Virus record (IMG/VR): IMGVR_UViG_3300044628_001165
Span: 1 to 21,134 of that record
Source of the DNA: a virus
DNA: 21,134 bases
Reading direction: 5' to 3' (one strand)
Each line of letters begins with the position of its first letter. Position 1 is the first letter of the stretch. A program made the position numbers and the translations under genes. Positions 4,718-19,328 of this stretch are shown here, piece by piece. Under the pieces are notes generated by a model. That model searched no databases. It saw only the letters and a program-made list of their open reading frames with translations, and had not been told where the DNA came from.

Positions 4718-5434
4718 ATGGCCAGCCTTGAGGAAACCCTGGAAGAGCGCGGCAAGCGTTACGGCAGTTTTGCGGAGCATTCGGCGATCACCGACGCGCT
4801 GAAAGAGGCCGCCGCCGCCAACACTCCGCACAAGACAAAGCTCGCGCCTGATCAGAAAGAAGCGCTCGACATGATTTTTCACAAAATCGGTCGCATCCTT
4901 GCCGGCGACCCGGACTGGGCTGATAGCTGGCACGACATCGCCGGCTACGCCAAGCTGGTCGAGGATCGCCTGAACGCCGAGCAGGCGGCCGAGGCGAAGA
5001 AGACGGCGGCCCGAGCCGCTGCGGGCGATCCATGGGAGCCCCGCGCCCCCGTCGAGCTTCAGCTTTTCGACAGCAGCAACATTATCGAGTATTCGCATTT
5101 CGGCAAAGCAAGCGCCGCCTCGCATTCCGAAATCTGCTTTTGCGTGCCGCCGGCACAGGAGCGCAGGTTTCCATCGGGCGCCCACGGGCGTCCCGTCGAA
5201 CTCCATGACAGAATTAAGGTTGCCTGCGACCCGGCCGGCCGCCCGATTAAACCACGCACTTATTTTGTGGTATCGGTCGAGGAGCTTGATGGCGGTTGCC
5301 AGCGCATTTGCGCTATTCCCGAGCGGTACTGGGTTCTGCGCAGCGACTTCCGCGAAGCGCTGCGCCGGGGGGCAAGCCTCGATCTCCGCAAAGAGCTTTG
5401 GATGCTGGAGCGCTTTGGCTATCGTCGGGGCTGA
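4718..5434 (+). CDS. DUF6378-type phage protein with extra C-terminal region
   Basis: This encodes 238 residues. The first about 88 (ERGKRYGSFAEH..., then EALDMIFHKIGRILAGD, then DSWHDIAGYAKLVEDRL) match the DUF6378 layout. That is a short helical domain common in phage and plasmid genomes with conserved HK.aRi..Gd and DSW.DiaGY motifs; its function is unknown. An Ala/Glu-rich linker (about 88-105) leads to about 130 further residues with strand-like segments (DRIKVACDPAGRPIKPRTYF, then ELDGGCQRICAIP) and a basic helical end. The family is normally close to 100 residues, so the C-terminal half is an unassigned addition. The ATG follows TAAAAT by 19 nt. A 303-codon frame on the opposite strand is a shadow. 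Confidence 0.7.
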   Translation: MASLEETLEERGKRYGSFAEHSAITDALKEAAAANTPHKTKLAPDQKEALDMIFHKIGRILAGDPDWADSWHDIAGYAKLVEDRLNAEQAAEAKKTAARAAAGDPWEPRAPVELQLFDSSNIIEYSHFGKASAASHSEICFCVPPAQERRFPSGAHGRPVELHDRIKVACDPAGRPIKPRTYFVVSVEELDGGCQRICAIPERYWVLRSDFREALRRGASLDLRKELWMLERFGYRRG

Positions 5435-5675: not shown

Positions 5676-5702
5676 CAAAAAATCTAACAAATCAGTAGAT
5701 TT
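5676..5702 (-). terminator. Weak intrinsic terminator of the large terminase gene
   Basis: On the - strand, AAATCTA (5702-5696), a 9-nt loop and TAGATTT (5686-5680) are followed by a T-run continuing to 5677. The stem is AT-rich and overlaps the stop codon, so termination may be inefficient. Confidence 0.35.
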
Positions 5703-7056
5703 GGTGGTCGGTAAACTCTCCGTTCGCTCCCTTGGTTAGATTAAACTTTCCAAGGCAAAGATACCCAAAGGCGTCGAACGCATGATCGACGCCTAATTTT
5801 TTGTTTGGCATTCGCGTCCCTTCGGCGTACCCAAGCGTTCTGAACGATTTAACAAGCTCGCGGCAGCGCGGATGTATCTTTGTATGCACTTCCCCATCGG
5901 CAGTGCGAAGCGCTGCATTTACAGCGCGGATTTTATCGGCAGTATTGTAAGGCGCCTCTGGCGCGTAAACGCGCAATCCTGCCTTCCTGAGGATTTGATG
6001 GTCACTTACGCCAACGCCAGACGTTTGCTTGCGTTTGCCGGTAGGGTCCGGCAAGCCATAAATTACGCGCCTGGCACCATCGTCGGACTCCGCTAATTCA
6101 TTTACGCCATATTTGTCGTTAACAACCTCCGCCAAGTCCCAGGTTGTCGCATTTTTAAGCGTTATTTCGTCAAATACGCGCAATTCGTAAATTTTCCCGT
6201 TTTTTCTGATGATATTGGCGCAAATTGCCGTTAAGGGATCGTTGTTAAAGTCGATTCCAATGTAAAGCGGCAACCTCTGATCGTCGCAAATCGTAGAGTC
6301 GATGTTGTCCATTGAAAAACAAGGCACAACAAGCCCTGTATTTGACTCAATCTTCGCTTCATACTCCCTGGCAAACACTTCTGGCGCGAGCGTGCGCCGC
6401 GCTTCTTCAATTTCGGCCGCTGGTATGTTTCCGCCTTGCAGCGACGTGTATTCATAAAGCGACCACTGCAAAGGGTCAAGCCGCTCAAGGCCGGGATCAG
6501 CCATTTCGGCGTCTTTGAGCAGCAAAATTGTCTCGTAAAACCAGCCTGCGGTGCCTTCCGGCGACGGAGTTGTAGTAAAAAGCCCCCAGCCGCCACGATC
6601 GGAAAGCGCCGGGCGAATCACGGAGCGCCACGTATATTCTTGCTGGAATGCGCATTCGTCCATCACCACGCCGGATAACGCTGGCCCGCGTAGCGCGTCG
6701 GGATCTTCCGAGCCTTTCAGGTAAATTGCGGAGCCGTTAATCAGCTCAATCTTGAGATTGGCTTCATTCTTTTTTCGCACCCAGCGTTCTGGAATAATGC
6801 GCTTGTAGGTATCCCACGCAATGTCACGCGCCATGCGATATGTTGGGGCGACGTAGTAATAGTCGCCAACAATTTCCGCCGCGCCTCGCAACAGCTCGAC
6901 TCCTCCAAGCACGGTTTTCCCCCCACGGCGCCCCGCAAGCACCACGCGAAAGCGCCGCCGATCCTTGAATATCTGACCCTGGATTGGCCTCAGCGAGACC
7001 CGATTCTTGCCGGCAAGAAAGTCTCCGCTGCGCCGCAATGTGGCCTGGGCTGACAT
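5692..7056 (-). CDS. terL: Terminase large subunit (TerL)
   Basis: This encodes 454 residues and is the DNA-packaging motor and nuclease, which docks on the portal. The Walker A motif is GRRGGKT (42-48) and the Walker B is VVMDE (130-134). The coupling motif is TTTPSP (161-166). The C-terminal nuclease shows acidic residues in IGIDFNND (near 265), a second Asp in GLPDPTGK, and a final Asp in VDHAFDAFGYL. All key motifs are intact and the length is normal. The ATG has a strong AGGAGG sequence 6 nt upstream, unlike most genes here. It is transcribed away from the portal, which is unusual since terminase normally leads the head operon on the same strand. Confidence 0.93.
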   Translation of the reverse strand: MSAQATLRRSGDFLAGKNRVSLRPIQGQIFKDRRRFRVVLAGRRGGKTVLGGVELLRGAAEIVGDYYYVAPTYRMARDIAWDTYKRIIPERWVRKKNEANLKIELINGSAIYLKGSEDPDALRGPALSGVVMDECAFQQEYTWRSVIRPALSDRGGWGLFTTTPSPEGTAGWFYETILLLKDAEMADPGLERLDPLQWSLYEYTSLQGGNIPAAEIEEARRTLAPEVFAREYEAKIESNTGLVVPCFSMDNIDSTICDDQRLPLYIGIDFNNDPLTAICANIIRKNGKIYELRVFDEITLKNATTWDLAEVVNDKYGVNELAESDDGARRVIYGLPDPTGKRKQTSGVGVSDHQILRKAGLRVYAPEAPYNTADKIRAVNAALRTADGEVHTKIHPRCRELVKSFRTLGYAEGTRMPNKKLGVDHAFDAFGYLCLGKFNLTKGANGEFTDHQIY

Positions 7057-7062
7057 TGGCTA

Positions 7063-7068
7063 CCTCCT
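7063..7068 (-). promoter_or_regulatory. Strong Shine-Dalgarno sequence for TerL
   Basis: AGGAGG on the - strand lies 6 nt before the ATG at 7056. It confirms the start and stands out because most promoter-proximal genes here have no SD. Confidence 0.7.
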
Positions 7069-7076
7069 GCCGGCTC

Positions 7077-7085
7077 AGTGTAACC
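7077..7085 (-). promoter_or_regulatory. -10 box GGT-TACACT for TerL
   Basis: On the - strand, 20 nt before the TerL ATG. The hexamer is identical to the boxes before scaffold, decoration and tail tube genes. Confidence 0.5.
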
Positions 7086-7105
7086 CGTGCTCGCTGACGC
7101 TGGCA

Positions 7106-7114
7106 GGCTATGCT
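7106..7114 (+). promoter_or_regulatory. Extended -10 box GGC-TATGCT for the portal gene
   Basis: The box lies 21 nt before the ATG at 7136. With the box at 7077-7085 it forms a compact divergent promoter in a 79-nt gap. Confidence 0.5.
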
Positions 7115-7135
7115 GGCCGCAAACGCGCCGCCCCG

Positions 7136-8590
7136 ATGGCAAGCACCCGAGTAAGGCTAAGGAACGTTAATTACAACGACAAAGACAGTCCATTTTTTAT
7201 GGACACAACTGTTATCAACATGCGTAAGAAGTGGGAGATTATACGCGCCGTCACAAACGGCACTGAATACCTGCACGAAAACGCTGCCGTATATTTGCCA
7301 AGGGAGCCCAGGGAAGAGGCGAAGCAAATTCCGGGTATCGGAAAATACGATCCGTGGCTCAAGCGAGTCAATCTGTCCGTTTTGGCACCTTTTACTAAGC
7401 GCATAATCCATAATGCTGCGGGAATGGTGCTGCGCAAGAAAATTAAACTGGAGGGCGGGGATCCTTTCTGGCGGGAGGAATTTGCAAAAGATGTTGACGG
7501 CGACGGCACGTCGCTTGATTTATTTGCGCTGGGCAGGCTTGAAACTTCATTGACCTACGGTATTTCAACGATTGTGGTTGATGCCGGCAAGCGCCAGGCC
7601 GTTACGGCGGCCGACGAGCTGCAGCCTTTGCGGCCATATTTTGTGCCGGTTGATCCGTGGCAATATCTAGGTCACAGGCGCGAGCATGACGGCCCCGGCG
7701 CCAAATTGACGATGCTGCGGTACCAGGAGGAAAGGCGCACCAACGATGGCGAGTATGGCGAAGAATACGTGGCGGCGGCCAGAGTGATCGTCCCAGGCGC
7801 CTACGAAGTGTTCGAGGCCGGCAAGCGTGTCTCTGTTGAGCTTGACGAATTTCCGTTGGATTATATTCCTGTTGTTGACATTTACTCGCAAAAAGTCGGC
7901 TATAGGTGCGCAACGCCACCTCTCGCTGATGTTGCCCATCTGAACATTGCCCATTACCGCCGCCTGGCGGATCTTCTTCATTCTCTGCACGTTGCCGCGA
8001 TCGGGTTGCTCGTTCTTGAGGATTACGATGGGGAGGACGCCGCAACTGGGCCAAGTTACGCCATCAAGATGAATGCTGGCACCAAAGCCTACTGGGTCGA
8101 ATATGACGCCGGCTCGCTTACCGCTCAGGCGGAATTGCTGGACCGCATCGAAAGCGAAATTAGCCATTTAGGCGTAACTCAACTTCTCGGCCAAAAGCAA
8201 GTGGCGGAAAGTGAAGGCGCCAAAAGAATTGACCAGCAACAGGCAAACTGCGTTCTTGCGGTCGCCGCTCAAGAGCTGGAAGATTCGCTAAATAAGGCTT
8301 TTCGCATGGCGTCTGATTACAACGGACTGGAGCCACCGAAAGTAGTTATCGATAAAGATTTTGACTTCTACCGCCTGCTCGGCCAAGATGTGAGTGTCCT
8401 TTCTCAACTGGAAGAGAAGGGGCAAATTACTACCGAGGGCTTCTTAAAGATTCTTGCTCGCGGGGAATGGCTGCCGCAAGATATGGACCTTGCAGACTTG
8501 CTCAAAAAGGTGGAAGTTCTCAGAAGGGACGCGAAGCGCGAGAACGCCGCCCAACAGCAGCGCGATCTTGCTGCAGCAAAAACCCCCTGA
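7136..8590 (+). CDS. Portal protein (DUF4055 type)
   Basis: This encodes 484 residues from ATG 7136 (MASTRVRLRNVNYND); a longer frame from 7007 would overlap TerL and cross both promoters. The N-terminal region KWEIIRAVTNGTEYL..., with YLPREPREE and then FTKRIIHNAAGMVLRK, follows the DUF4055 portal pattern. A conserved wing region (YFVPVDPWQYLGHRR) and the helical stem/crown (ESEISHLGVTQLLGQKQVAE, then SEGAKRIDQQQAN) come next. The C-terminus is a charged helix. The protein forms the dodecameric ring at the capsid vertex through which TerL pumps DNA. It lies next to TerL and before the scaffold, as expected. Confidence 0.85.
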   Translation: MASTRVRLRNVNYNDKDSPFFMDTTVINMRKKWEIIRAVTNGTEYLHENAAVYLPREPREEAKQIPGIGKYDPWLKRVNLSVLAPFTKRIIHNAAGMVLRKKIKLEGGDPFWREEFAKDVDGDGTSLDLFALGRLETSLTYGISTIVVDAGKRQAVTAADELQPLRPYFVPVDPWQYLGHRREHDGPGAKLTMLRYQEERRTNDGEYGEEYVAAARVIVPGAYEVFEAGKRVSVELDEFPLDYIPVVDIYSQKVGYRCATPPLADVAHLNIAHYRRLADLLHSLHVAAIGLLVLEDYDGEDAATGPSYAIKMNAGTKAYWVEYDAGSLTAQAELLDRIESEISHLGVTQLLGQKQVAESEGAKRIDQQQANCVLAVAAQELEDSLNKAFRMASDYNGLEPPKVVIDKDFDFYRLLGQDVSVLSQLEEKGQITTEGFLKILARGEWLPQDMDLADLLKKVEVLRRDAKRENAAQQQRDLAAAKTP

Positions 8591-14098: not shown

Positions 14099-14113
14099 CG
14101 TGGCTTGCTGCAG

Positions 14114-14122
14114 TGCTATGAT
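14114..14122 (+). promoter_or_regulatory. Extended -10 box TGC-TATGAT
   Basis: The box lies 25 nt before the ATG at 14148 and has a near-consensus hexamer. No Shine-Dalgarno sequence occurs in the gap. Confidence 0.6.
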
Positions 14123-14147
14123 GCTTGGGCCGCATTTCCCCTTCGTC

Positions 14148-14543
14148 ATGGCCAAGCAAGATGTCAAGCAACTTCTCGCCAAAACTGGCCAGCGCCGCGT
14201 GGCCGAAGTCACTCTGACCACTGGCGACGTTTTTACCATGTGGTTCGATCCGCTGACCGAAGCGCAAGACGAGAAAATCCGCGAGGCGGTCCAAGGCGAC
14301 AAGCGATCTAACGCCTATGGATTCAACGTGCTTGTGTCAAAAGCACAGCACGAAGACGGGGAGATGATGTTTACCAAGGCCGACATCCCCGAAATGCGTC
14401 AGCGCTATTCCCAGGTTGATATGATGCGGCTGATGACCGCCCTGGTCGACAGCAACGGGATCCTGGCAAGCGAAGATTCCAAAAGCGATCAAGCAAGCGA
14501 TACGGGAAAGCCCGCAACTGCGGTTGAGGCTGGCGCTCTGTAA
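14148..14543 (+). CDS. Tail assembly chaperone, short form (gpG-like)
   Basis: This encodes 131 residues from ATG 14148 (MAKQDVKQLLAKTGQRRVAE), chosen by the box spacing over an upstream in-frame start at 14100. The sequence has EVTLTTGDVFTMWFDPLTEA and acidic helices, and ends in a Ser/Asp/Ala-rich tail (EDSKSDQASDTGKPATAVEA). Position between tail tube and tape measure, size, and a second overlapping frame all identify it as the gpG part of the gpG/gpGT chaperone pair. That pair coats the tape measure during tail assembly and is absent from the mature virion. Confidence 0.75.
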   Translation: MAKQDVKQLLAKTGQRRVAEVTLTTGDVFTMWFDPLTEAQDEKIREAVQGDKRSNAYGFNVLVSKAQHEDGEMMFTKADIPEMRQRYSQVDMMRLMTALVDSNGILASEDSKSDQASDTGKPATAVEAGAL

Positions 14544-14729: not shown

Positions 14730-17700
14730 GTGTCTGACTATCGGGGCCTGATTCGTGTTGGCATACAAGGGCTCGGGGAAATTCGCCAATTAAACAATGC
14801 TCTGCGGACTACCGCAGAGCTAGTCAGCAATCTTGAAAACGCTCAAGTAAACGCAGGGCAGATTGCGCAGGGCGCACAGCGCAACGTCGATCGCGCCGCG
14901 CAACGCAGAAGAATAGCCGGGCTTGAGCTTTCACGCGCTCAGCAAGTTGTAGCCAGCACGGCGATGCGCCGCGACCCGGCGACGGGGCGGATCATGGGCG
15001 GCGGCCCAAACGCTACGGCGCGAAGACTGGCCGGCGCTCAGTTGCGGCTGGCAGAGCGCGAGGTCAGGGAATCCGGCAGATCACTGACGGAAGAGTTGCA
15101 GAATAGGCGCGTAATTTCCGCCGCGCAACAAAGATACGCTATTGCAGCCGGAAATGCCGCCGAGGCCATGGAGGGCCTTCAGGGCAGCATCGAAAGGCAG
15201 CAGGCGCAAGTAAATCAAGTGACCCGAGCCATCGGGCAGGGTAGTCGCGGCAATTATCTCACCAACTTGTTCCAAGGGCGGCAGCAAGCGTTCGCCCGTG
15301 GCGGCGGTGGTCGAAATCTGCCGGAAGCGTTGCAGCGACAGGCGCAGGATGCGCGGGGCGCCTGGGATATTGCGACTGCGGGAGGCAGAGAAAATCTGCA
15401 ACTGATGTCGCGCCTTGCGACGGAAATGACAGGGCTCGTAAGGCAGCAGAATGAATTTAATCGCGGCAGGAGCCTGAGATCCGGCGGGTACGAGGCGGGA
15501 AGAAGAGGACAGGAAAGAATAACTGATTTGTCTAGGATGGCCGGCGCCGATCCGGCTCGGATCAGGCAACTTCGCTCGCGGGCGACCGAGACTATTGCCG
15601 CCAGCTTTAATAGCGATCAGCCGTCTACCCAGCTCGCCACGCGACGCATGAATGCGGCTATTGCAAGATATGAGCGAGAGTTGAATGCGGCAGCGCGTGA
15701 TCTCAGGCTTGCGCAGTCGCGAGGCGGGCCGCGATCGCCAATTCGCGGGACCGAGACGATGGTAGGTTCCCCGGCCTACCTGGCGGCGCGGCCCGGCCTT
15801 TTTCAGGGCAACGCCAGAAAAGCGCTCGGCGAGGGCCTTATCGGCGGCGCGTTCCCACTCCTGTTTGGCCAGGGCGTTGGCGCATCGGCGGGCGGCCTTG
15901 CGGGCGGCTTTGCTGGCGGCATGATTGGCGGAAGTTTCGGCTTTGGCCTTTCCCTTGTCGGCACCGCGATAGGACAGGCCGTTGATACTACGGTAAAGAA
16001 TTTAACTACTCTCGCTGATGCGATCAGAAGCCCAAGCAAAGCACTGGACGCGCTTGAGGCTAGCGGCCTTGCCTCTGGCCGCAGCCTTGAAAAAACCAGG
16101 CTTTACGTTGACCAGCTAACTGCAGTTGGCCGCGCTTACGATGCGCAAGCGCTTGTGCTACGCGAAGCTGAGAAACGGCTTGGCGCTGATGGCGTTCGCA
16201 ATCTAAACGCGCTAAATAGCGAGCAGAAGCGATTTCAGGATCAATCTGCTGCGATTGCTGGGACAATACAATCTGCGCTGCTCCCGGCGCTAGTTGGCTT
16301 TACGGCCGGCATAAACGACGTGATTGCCGCCGCCTCCGGCATTGCCAACTTGCCAGGCGCAAAAGAGGTCGCGGCTGCGCGGAACGCGCTGACTCAGAAC
16401 CCGGCTGGCCGCGCCCTCGCCAGCTCGCTTAGCCCGTTTGGGTCGATTGGCCAACTATTCGGCGTTGCGCAAGGTCGCGGTCGGGCGATTGCCGCCACGG
16501 GCGCCGGCAATCGCCAACCGCTTTCTCCGCAGGAAGCATTCGCAAATCAAACGGCCGCCGTTCAAGAATCACGCAAGCTCGCAGATCAAATTCAATCTGC
16601 TTACAGGGAATCTTTCAACTTGCAAAGGCAGGCGCATGACCTGCAATATGACGGAGCCAAGCTAAACAGGGAAGTTGCGAATTACGTGTACGGCAAAGAA
16701 AAGCAGATATTCGACTTGCGCCAGCAGGCGGCAGAGCGGCAAATCGAGAATACCAGGGCCGCCTCGCAAAATCGTATCGAGCGTGGGGATCTAAACGCTC
16801 GCCAAACCTTTGCGGCGGCGGTCGGTTTTGAGCAGCAACTGCTCAGCAATGTGCGTGAAGTCGTCCGCTCCAGAAAAGAAGGCGAAGCGGATATTGAGCA
16901 ATCCAGAAACAGGCTTGAGCTTGCGATGGCAAGGCTTAACCGAGGCGTCGAAGATTACAAGCGTACCAACGCACGCGAGATTGAGGATATTGAACGGCGC
17001 AAATTGAGCTACGTGCGATCTGTGGAAGATTACAGAATGCGCGTGGCGGATTACGTCTTGCAGCGCTCCCGCGAGTCGGCCGATCTCATGCGGCAAGCGA
17101 TGGTGCTGCCCCCCGCCGGGGCGGCGCCTGGCGCCCCGGCGGGGGGCAGCACTCCTGGCGGTGGGGCGGCCATCCCTGGAGGCGCGAGCACAGCCGGGAA
17201 CGTTGATCGCTTACTTCAGGCAGCAAATGGTAGCCTGGGCCTTTTCGCTGGCCAGACAGAGCGCTGCGCGGACGCAGTGCGCGAACTGTTCAAGGTCGCC
17301 GGAATCGCCATTGGCTCCACTAAAAAAGCGTGGGATGGCCTTACGTCTGGCCCGAGACTGGCGAGCAGCTTTTTTGGCTCGGATGTAGGCCAGCGAATCA
17401 ACCGCAAACAGGATCTGCGCCCAGGCGATCTAGTCGGCTTCGAGCGCACTTACGGAAACTGGGGGCAAGGCGTGCAAACCCATGTCGGCCTCTACGCCGG
17501 CAACGGGCAAATGTATGACCACAGCTCCAGGCGCGGACTGGTCAAGCGGCCAATGGATACGTTTGCCGGGAAGTTCATGTACGGAGTCCGCCCGAATGCG
17601 ATCGCCCCCAGCAATGCGCAAGGTAGTGCATCTGCCCAAATCAGCAACACCCCCGCGCCAACTTTCAAGCCTACCCCGATCGGTCCAACCCCCTCGGCCG

Positions 17701-19328
17701 CGCCCCTGAACGCCGCCAACCTCGCCGCCGCCGCGCAACTCAAAGGCGGGCAGGGCGAGGCGCAACGCATCCTGGAAGATCAAATCAAGCTCAGGCAAAA
17801 GGGAATCGAGCTTGGCCAAATTGAGCAAATACTGCAGGCAAATCAACTGCCGCAACTGCAACAGCAGGGCGAAGCGCTCAAGCAGCAAATCGATGCAAGG
17901 CAAAAGATTCTCGGGCTTAGCGATGACGCCGCTTCCGTCGTCGACATTGAAGCGGAGGCGAGCGCGAGGATTAAGCAAATTGAGCTTGATCGCAGCAACG
18001 CACTTGCCAAGGTGAAGGCGCAGTACAGTGGCAACGTTGACCTTGCGAAGCAAATAAACACGCAAGCTGATACCGCGCTCAAAATCGCCAAAGGCGAAGA
18101 AGTGCAGCGCCGCGCAAATCTCGAACTTGCCAATCAACTGCAAGTCGCAGATCGCGCTCGCTCCGAAATTCTGCAGCTTCAGGAAGACCTATCTCGCGGC
18201 AGGGCAGAAGCTGCCGCGCTAGAGCGCGGCGAGCTGCAAGCAAGCGCAGTCGAGCTGCTCAAGGCGTCTGCGCTTTACCAGCAGATGGGCAACGCGCAGC
18301 GCGAGATTGTTGCCGGGCTTGTCGCGGAAAGAGAATTGCAAAAGCAGGCCAACGATTTTCGCAGGAGCATTGAAGAGATGCGTCGAGACAAGTCGCTGAC
18401 CGGCGCCGGTTTGCGAGCTGGCTTTATCGGCACCGGCGCCAGAGCGTTCGAGCAGGGAATGAAAGATTTTAATGGTGACACGGGCAGGGCAACGCAGCTC
18501 GCCCGAGAAGCGCAACTGCTCGAAAGCCAACAACTTATTTGGCAGAGCCTTGAGAGGAATATCGTTGACACGTCAAGCGCCATTTCCGGCGGGCTGACGA
18601 ATGGCCTGCTTGATATTGTGAGTGGATCTAAAAAAATTGAGGACGTTGGCCGCGAAATGCTTAGCAACATTGCTCGCAGTTTTGCCGATAGCGCCCAGCA
18701 GCAGTTGAATGCGCTGCTTCAGCGCCAGCTCGGCGGAATGCTCGGCGGCGCCGGGGGGCCGCTCACGCGGATGATCGGGGCTGGCGCAGAGGCGGCAGGC
18801 CCCCAGGCGCTCGGGGCGGCTTCCATGGCGGCCTCCGGACAGCTCGCCATGTTCGGAGCCGCGCTGCAGGCCGTAACCGCTCAGATGGCTCTCTCCGGCG
18901 CGATGGGCGGTACTGGCTCCGCCTTTTCCGGCGCCGCCTCGACACTGCTCGGCAACGCGGTTCCGGGCCTGATTCCGGGGTTCTCGCCCACCTACACATT
19001 TGGCGGGTTCTTCGCCAATGGCGGCACTACCCGCCCAGGCGAGGCTTATGTAGTTGGCGATGGCGGCGAGCCAGAATTTTTCTTCCCCGGCACAACGGGG
19101 CGAGTAGTGCCACAAAGCAAGATGACAAAAGCGGATAAGCTAAGGCGGCAATCCCGTCAGAGCGATACCATCGATATTAGCTACACTGTCACAGAGCAAG
19201 CGGGCCAGCGCTTTGTCACGGAAGATCAATTCCGCAGAGGCATGGATGCCACCAAACGGGGTGCGCGAGCCGCTACGCTTGCCGGGCTAAGAAACGACAA
19301 GTCCCAGCGAGACTACGTGAACATCTAA
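14730..19328 (+). CDS. Tape measure protein with internal NlpC/P60 domain
   Basis: This encodes 1532 residues from a GTG start (SDYRGLIRVGIQGLGEIRQL). It sets tail length and is ejected with the DNA. Residues 10-360 are Gln/Arg/Ala-rich helices, and about 365-415 form a Gly-rich hydrophobic patch (GGAFPLLFGQGVGASAGGLA). Residues 500-790 are coiled coil. About 824-957 form an NlpC/P60-like peptidase with Cys846 (ERCADAVRELF), DLRPGDLVGF, His918 (THVGLYAGNGQMYDH) and a polar third residue near 930. It is flanked by Pro/Gly/Ala linkers. Further coiled coil covers 985-1250. Near 1440-1465, VVGDGGEPEFFFPGTTGRVV is the usual tape-measure C-terminal motif. The enzyme probably cuts peptidoglycan during entry. 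Confidence 0.9.
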   Translation: MSDYRGLIRVGIQGLGEIRQLNNALRTTAELVSNLENAQVNAGQIAQGAQRNVDRAAQRRRIAGLELSRAQQVVASTAMRRDPATGRIMGGGPNATARRLAGAQLRLAEREVRESGRSLTEELQNRRVISAAQQRYAIAAGNAAEAMEGLQGSIERQQAQVNQVTRAIGQGSRGNYLTNLFQGRQQAFARGGGGRNLPEALQRQAQDARGAWDIATAGGRENLQLMSRLATEMTGLVRQQNEFNRGRSLRSGGYEAGRRGQERITDLSRMAGADPARIRQLRSRATETIAASFNSDQPSTQLATRRMNAAIARYERELNAAARDLRLAQSRGGPRSPIRGTETMVGSPAYLAARPGLFQGNARKALGEGLIGGAFPLLFGQGVGASAGGLAGGFAGGMIGGSFGFGLSLVGTAIGQAVDTTVKNLTTLADAIRSPSKALDALEASGLASGRSLEKTRLYVDQLTAVGRAYDAQALVLREAEKRLGADGVRNLNALNSEQKRFQDQSAAIAGTIQSALLPALVGFTAGINDVIAAASGIANLPGAKEVAAARNALTQNPAGRALASSLSPFGSIGQLFGVAQGRGRAIAATGAGNRQPLSPQEAFANQTAAVQESRKLADQIQSAYRESFNLQRQAHDLQYDGAKLNREVANYVYGKEKQIFDLRQQAAERQIENTRAASQNRIERGDLNARQTFAAAVGFEQQLLSNVREVVRSRKEGEADIEQSRNRLELAMARLNRGVEDYKRTNAREIEDIERRKLSYVRSVEDYRMRVADYVLQRSRESADLMRQAMVLPPAGAAPGAPAGGSTPGGGAAIPGGASTAGNVDRLLQAANGSLGLFAGQTERCADAVRELFKVAGIAIGSTKKAWDGLTSGPRLASSFFGSDVGQRINRKQDLRPGDLVGFERTYGNWGQGVQTHVGLYAGNGQMYDHSSRRGLVKRPMDTFAGKFMYGVRPNAIAPSNAQGSASAQISNTPAPTFKPTPIGPTPSAAPLNAANLAAAAQLKGGQGEAQRILEDQIKLRQKGIELGQIEQILQANQLPQLQQQGEALKQQIDARQKILGLSDDAASVVDIEAEASARIKQIELDRSNALAKVKAQYSGNVDLAKQINTQADTALKIAKGEEVQRRANLELANQLQVADRARSEILQLQEDLSRGRAEAAALERGELQASAVELLKASALYQQMGNAQREIVAGLVAERELQKQANDFRRSIEEMRRDKSLTGAGLRAGFIGTGARAFEQGMKDFNGDTGRATQLAREAQLLESQQLIWQSLERNIVDTSSAISGGLTNGLLDIVSGSKKIEDVGREMLSNIARSFADSAQQQLNALLQRQLGGMLGGAGGPLTRMIGAGAEAAGPQALGAASMAASGQLAMFGAALQAVTAQMALSGAMGGTGSAFSGAASTLLGNAVPGLIPGFSPTYTFGGFFANGGTTRPGEAYVVGDGGEPEFFFPGTTGRVVPQSKMTKADKLRRQSRQSDTIDISYTVTEQAGQRFVTEDQFRRGMDATKRGARAATLAGLRNDKSQRDYVNI
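17103..17152. repeat. Perfect 21-bp inverted repeat inside the tape measure gene
   Basis: The arms 17103-17123 and 17132-17152 are exact reverse complements, separated by 8 nt. They are built from GC-rich blocks (GTGCTGCCCCCC then GCCGGGGCG, and the mirror). The repeat encodes the Pro/Gly/Ala linker at residues 792-808, just before the NlpC/P60 domain. No T-run follows. It would give a very stable hairpin in DNA or mRNA. Confidence 0.9.

Follow-up and report, generated by a model that had tools for sequence, protein, structure and literature searches.

A perfect 21-bp inverted repeat, probably a mutational accident, at the joint of a domain-swap slot in a phage tape measure gene

The window analyzed here is the whole of the IMG/VR record IMGVR_UViG_3300044628_001165 (21,134 nt), in which no tRNA was found. 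Its terminase large subunit gene (5692-7056, minus strand) overlaps the divergently oriented portal gene (7007-8590, plus strand) by 50 bp, both taken as ORFs. An ORF at 4718-5434 (plus strand) matches phrog_474, which is annotated as phosphofructokinase, over about 100 residues (E 5e-21), and matches phrog_16943, a group of unknown function, more strongly. Head-tail connector-like ORFs and a tail assembly chaperone-like ORF (14100-14543) precede a 1532-aa ORF at 14730-19328, which is assigned as the tape measure gene because of its position behind these ORFs and its homology to P0002, a protein with a weak match to a tape-measure PHROG (E 8.5e-4). The tape measure protein includes an NlpC/P60 domain whose presumed catalytic residues, the ERCAD cysteine and the THVG histidine, are invariant across three relatives. 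The features of the locus are as follows.

14730 to 19328, plus strand: tape measure protein gene (1532 aa), assigned from the ORF, the upstream gene context and the weakly PHROG-matching homolog P0002
16932 to 17099, plus strand: conserved coiled-coil segment (EDYKRTNAREIEDIERRKL...RQAM), common to 59 viral contigs, terminating at the swap slot
17103 to 17123, plus strand: left arm of the inverted repeat, encoding VLPPAGA (TLPDMGA in relatives), from the sequence and alignment to relatives
17124 to 17131, plus strand: 8-nt loop, GCGCCTGG, from the sequence
17132 to 17152, plus strand: right arm, the exact reverse complement of the left arm, from the sequence
17153 to 17293, plus strand: putative recombination tract, 95% identical to locus L095 (flanks 69% and 74.5% identical), its 5′ edge adjoining the right arm
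17265 to 17558, plus strand: NlpC/P60 domain (aa 846-943), from a match to PF00877 (E 4e-7)
17103 to 17624, plus strand: swap slot (approximate coordinates), occupied in relatives by different domains, mostly recognizable cell-wall hydrolases, from comparison of relatives

The original prediction of a perfect, GC-rich inverted repeat at 17103-17152 within the tape measure gene is confirmed: the arms are complementary at 21 of 21 positions, are 90% G+C, flank an 8-nt loop and lie in frame in the ORF. Each arm is also nearly palindromic by itself (CCCCGCCGGGG against CCCCGGCGGGG), and as RNA the stem greatly exceeds shuffled sequences in stability (MFE -85 kcal/mol for 17080-17200, z -4.3). An intrinsic terminator is rejected, in agreement with the earlier view, because the stem is followed by TCCTGGCGG, with no T-run. 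The repeat was also said to lie precisely at the edge of the NlpC/P60 domain; it is near that edge but not at it, since the conserved cassette begins at about 17202 and the Pfam match at about 17265, 50-110 bp downstream of the repeat.

The identical repeat occurs in a second contig (L003/L006, IMGVR_UViG_3300033996_001216), which matches the window at 100% identity along 8482 bp and represents the same virus. The contig analyzed is metagenome-derived, and a fold-back chimera produced in assembly or amplification might therefore be imagined; however, the second contig comes from a different metagenome (3300033996), and the sequence continues on both sides of the repeat in an open frame that can be aligned with relatives, so that the chance of such an artefact is negligible. 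No further copy of the repeat was found within the window, and a search of 84,980 prokaryote genomes recovered no stem with exact arms of 16 bp. Among viral contigs, a 17-mer from the arm is confined to this virus, apart from three contigs in which it occurs as a single arm in an unrelated context; a further palindromic copy was not found. A palindromic sequence standing in frame in a tolerant linker would be expected of a mobile element of the REP or Rickettsia-palindrome type, or of an inserted protein-binding palindrome, but its single-copy state in the window and its absence from the genomes and from the other viral contigs speak against this origin. Furthermore, the corresponding linkers of three relatives (L081, L096 and L057) are equal in length to that of the window, and therefore nothing has been inserted, which makes this explanation highly improbable.

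An alignment-based search recovered 28 related tape-measure loci and a search with the coiled coil recovered 59, the window's own virus being included in both. All of them have a coiled coil that terminates in RQAM or a close variant of it, followed by a linker that mostly starts with TLPDMG. A palindrome at this position is present in none of the 58 other contigs containing the coiled coil, and the 35 other distinct linkers of the family have arms of at most 8 bp (80 nt scanned, loop of 3-20 nt). Among the 28 loci found by alignment, perfect arms of at least 14 bp within the tape measure gene are restricted to the window's virus; the longest arms in the other loci are 13 bp, in L033, and lie elsewhere in the gene. 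A domain-based search yielded 12 NlpC/P60 loci besides the window's virus, and the best arms in the 200 nt upstream of their domains are 5-8 bp. Thus, the arms are not kept in relatives that bear the domain (L095, L087 and ten further loci have arms of 8 bp or less), which is the outcome that the original prediction itself had named as counting against its proposals. The repeat is not a conserved element and is confined to this virus among the loci found. Because relatives keep the domain without the arms, a role as the entry site of the domain, as a pause hairpin for domain folding or as a conserved protein-binding palindrome, all of which had been proposed, is strongly disfavored.

The proposal of a functional RNA hairpin, which would pause the ribosome or RNA polymerase and let the hydrolase domain fold separately, draws on the high stability of the stem and on its placement between the coiled coil and the domain. 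However, a conserved hairpin is absent from relatives with and without the domain: the folding z-scores of the NlpC/P60-bearing L095 and L087 are +0.75 and -1.8, respectively, and those of most relatives are near zero. Together with the lack of the arms in all NlpC/P60 relatives, this makes a pausing hairpin very unlikely. Elsewhere in the family, the linkers of L068 and L072 (2654-2773 in each) fold better than their codon-shuffled versions (z -4.4 and -3.3).

No match was obtained in nucleotide searches of the slot region against known phages or of the whole gene against plasmids, and in a protein search against phages the enzyme domain was the only matching part, weakly. A search for the coiled coil in prokaryote genomes found no relative, and consequently no host or prophage was identified.

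The two arms had been called extremely unlikely to arise by chance. This judgment holds against randomized sequence, since none of 3000 local dinucleotide shuffles has arms exceeding 15 bp, and none of 90,000 randomizations of relatives' linkers towards the composition of the window exceeds 16 bp. It needs a caveat for a Pro/Ala/Gly-rich linker with a high GC3 content: when the window's protein was fixed and synonymous codons were varied, arms of at least 21 bp arose in only 1 of 20,000 draws by the codon usage of the gene, whereas GC-ending codons gave them in 49 of 20,000 draws (0.25%). In a Pro/Ala/Gly linker that is very rich in G+C and uses GC-ending codons, pairing of CCN and GCN codons with GGN and GCN codons makes the sequence intrinsically self-complementary, and this linker might have drifted into a perfect match. 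The 90% G+C content of the stretch and the near-palindromic nature of each arm are in keeping with this view, which is the main rival explanation. On the other hand, holding the present protein fixed already builds the coincidence into the calculation; starting from relatives' linkers, arms of 17 bp are never reached (0/90,000), and arms longer than 8 bp are found in 0 of the 35 other distinct linkers. A chance origin is a serious but rather doubtful alternative.

It is more probable, and we hold this with moderate confidence, that the repeat arose by mutation in this lineage, within a Pro/Ala/Gly linker that is not conserved, most likely through a template switch, and that it is not a functional element. 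In the favored model, the linker would first have held an imperfect palindrome (a quasi-palindrome) and, in a short-range template switch during replication, one arm would have been copied from the other. The direction would have been right to left, with the right arm as the template for the left arm, whose site would have been altered from the family consensus (ACGCTGCCCGACATGGGCGCG to GTGCTGCCCCCCGCCGGGGCG, TLPDMGA to VLPPAGA) to give perfect complementarity. The change would have been tolerated, and presumably neutral, as the linker only connects the coiled coil with a wall-hydrolase cassette that can be exchanged. We infer the event, its direction and its neutrality from sequences that are about 25-33% divergent.

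Several observations are consistent with this model, among them the absence of the repeat from the other loci found, whether they share the coiled coil or the domain, and the lack of an outside source for the arm pattern. The site of the left arm is otherwise conserved: in 53 of 59 sequences it reads TLP and then D, E or G, and VLPPAG occurs only in the window's virus. The replacement of GAC ATG by CCC GCC changes five of six adjacent nucleotides; among 183 two-codon windows of the flank, 0-5 show a change of this extent. The left arm is the reverse complement of the nearby right arm at 21 of 21 positions. The linkers of L081, L096 and L057 align to that of the window without gaps, and differ from it at 9-10 of 21 positions in the left arm and at 6-7 of 21 in the right arm. 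In simulation, perfect complementarity was out of reach for independent substitution (0/90,000). On the other hand, the arms of L081, L096 and L057 are complementary to each other at 10, 7 and 9 of 21 positions, respectively, but at a divergence of about 33%, and at this divergence both arms of the window differ from relatives. By simple count, an excess of differences in the left arm is not significant, as 9 differences in 21 nt are not significantly above a flank divergence of 24-33%. No relative lacking the repeat was found above about 78% flank DNA identity, and the sequence before the event is thus not directly seen. Since the outer right arm (GGCAGCAC) also differs from relatives, part of the homogenization could have run in the opposite direction.

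Template switching is known to homogenize the arms of inverted repeats in coding genes and to replace neighboring amino acids, and was first proposed in bacteriophages (the Ripley model; Abraham and Hazkani-Covo, 2021, PMC8604942). Those quasi-palindrome mutations share with the present case a perfect inverted repeat in a coding gene and clustered, multi-nucleotide, amino-acid-changing differences in an arm relative to the family; here, by contrast, a recent ancestor is missing. Perfect inverted repeats within open reading frames are also present in the mitochondrial genomes of Nematomorpha (PMC6649704), but these are numerous, reach 284 bp and encode conserved residues, whereas that described here is single and lies in a non-conserved linker.

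The position of the repeat also bears on recombination. The sequence at 17153-17293 is 95% identical over 141 bp to L095:2720-2860 (approximate coordinates), between flanks that are only 69% and 74.5% identical. L095 contains the same NlpC/P60 domain without the repeat, and the shared tract begins directly after the right arm; it is likely a recombination tract left by a recent exchange, which would span the end of the linker and the N-terminal part of the domain. The repeat might accordingly be a scar that formed at, or promoted, the crossover that brought in the NlpC/P60 cassette or part of it, particularly as it sits in the linker where swaps are joined. However, L095 and the other carriers of the domain have no such repeat, swaps in dozens of relatives took place without one, and the juxtaposition at a single edge may be a coincidence. 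Thus, of the recombinational origin put forward in the original prediction, the link of the site to recombination survives, whereas the repeat as a scar of domain entry is unsupported and distinctly unlikely.

In the tape measure protein, the linker harboring the repeat forms the 5′ joint of a slot in which domains are swapped. Among phages whose flanking DNA is about 91-99% identical, the slot contains, at one position, NlpC/P60, M23, LytM-like, SLT, phage-lysozyme, C39-like or unidentified domains, and in some cases two modules. Pfam matches above the cut-off support NlpC/P60, M23, SLT and phage lysozyme (PF18013), and those below it comprise LytM-like M23, C39-like and further SLT-like domains. 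The identity of two classes is not secure: one is endolysin-like (phrog_90, E 8e-5), and the other has weak sequence matches, to hedgehog-type proteins. The “M15-like” class, to which these hedgehog-type matches belong, has an AlphaFold model (pLDDT 63) with no significant fold match in the PDB, and the AlphaFold model of the “GH-like” class has a pLDDT of 38, so that the M15-like and GH-like classes are not firmly identified as enzymes. Hedgehog-type proteins belong to the LAS metallopeptidase fold.

Swapping is seen directly in pairs of loci. For L031 and L028, the identity is 96.6% along 5.1 kb upstream of the slot and 99.3% along 2.4 kb downstream of it (90.8% in the adjacent part of the gene), and the slot contains a GH-like domain in L031 and an M23 domain in L028; L017 and L030 are about 94.4% identical on either side (1.35 kb and 8.6 kb) and differ in the slot. 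When mapped on a tree built from the upstream flank, the slot label (15 labels) changes 25 times, or 23 times on a careful tree from which ambiguous rows were left out, with a minimum of 12-14 changes; the labels derive from clustering with two-module slots labeled separately, and some of the changes may be only apparent, owing to recombination within the flank. Placement of the carriers in one clade was rejected for the NlpC, M23, M15-like, GH-like and LytM classes (p-AU from 8e-4 to below 1e-40). Further swap-slot loci noted are L012, L020, L025 and L029. Loci L100-L109 have an NlpC/P60 domain 73-86% identical to that of the window, preceded by sequences that do not resemble the tape measure scaffold described here.

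From these comparisons, the family appears to be a clear example of tape measure proteins that have recently shuffled their domains. Shuffling of domains between related phage proteins has been surveyed on a large scale, and recent mosaicism in tape measure proteins could not be confirmed (Smug et al., 2023, PMC10684548); the present family, by contrast, shows it between long, near-identical flanks and makes it directly testable. It is also tempting to speculate, although we consider it unlikely, that the tape measure protein of these phages contains an evolved plug-in site, whose disordered, GC-rich linkers serve as recombination joints for the fast exchange of wall enzymes among phages that are otherwise nearly identical, and that palindrome formation is a by-product of, or an aid to, strand switching at these joints.

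Overall, the original observation was right and its location is informative, whereas the mechanisms attached to it are mostly unsupported; the repeat is probably a mutational accident in a tolerant joint. The palindrome is probably a natural case in which a template switch rewrote a conserved motif of a phage protein. The swap slot matters more than the palindrome, as dozens of closely related tape measure proteins have different domains, mostly wall enzymes, in one slot. In mycobacteriophage TM4, the tape measure protein has a peptidoglycan hydrolase motif, Mt3, which helps the phage to infect cells in stationary phase (Piuri and Hatfull, 2006, PMC1796659). A wall-degrading domain is likewise embedded in the protein described here, but in this family a single slot has received different domain families in phages that are close relatives. 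By analogy with Mt3, the slot cassette probably helps the tail to breach the host wall, and its swapping may track host wall chemistry, which raises the question of whether that chemistry drives the shuffling.
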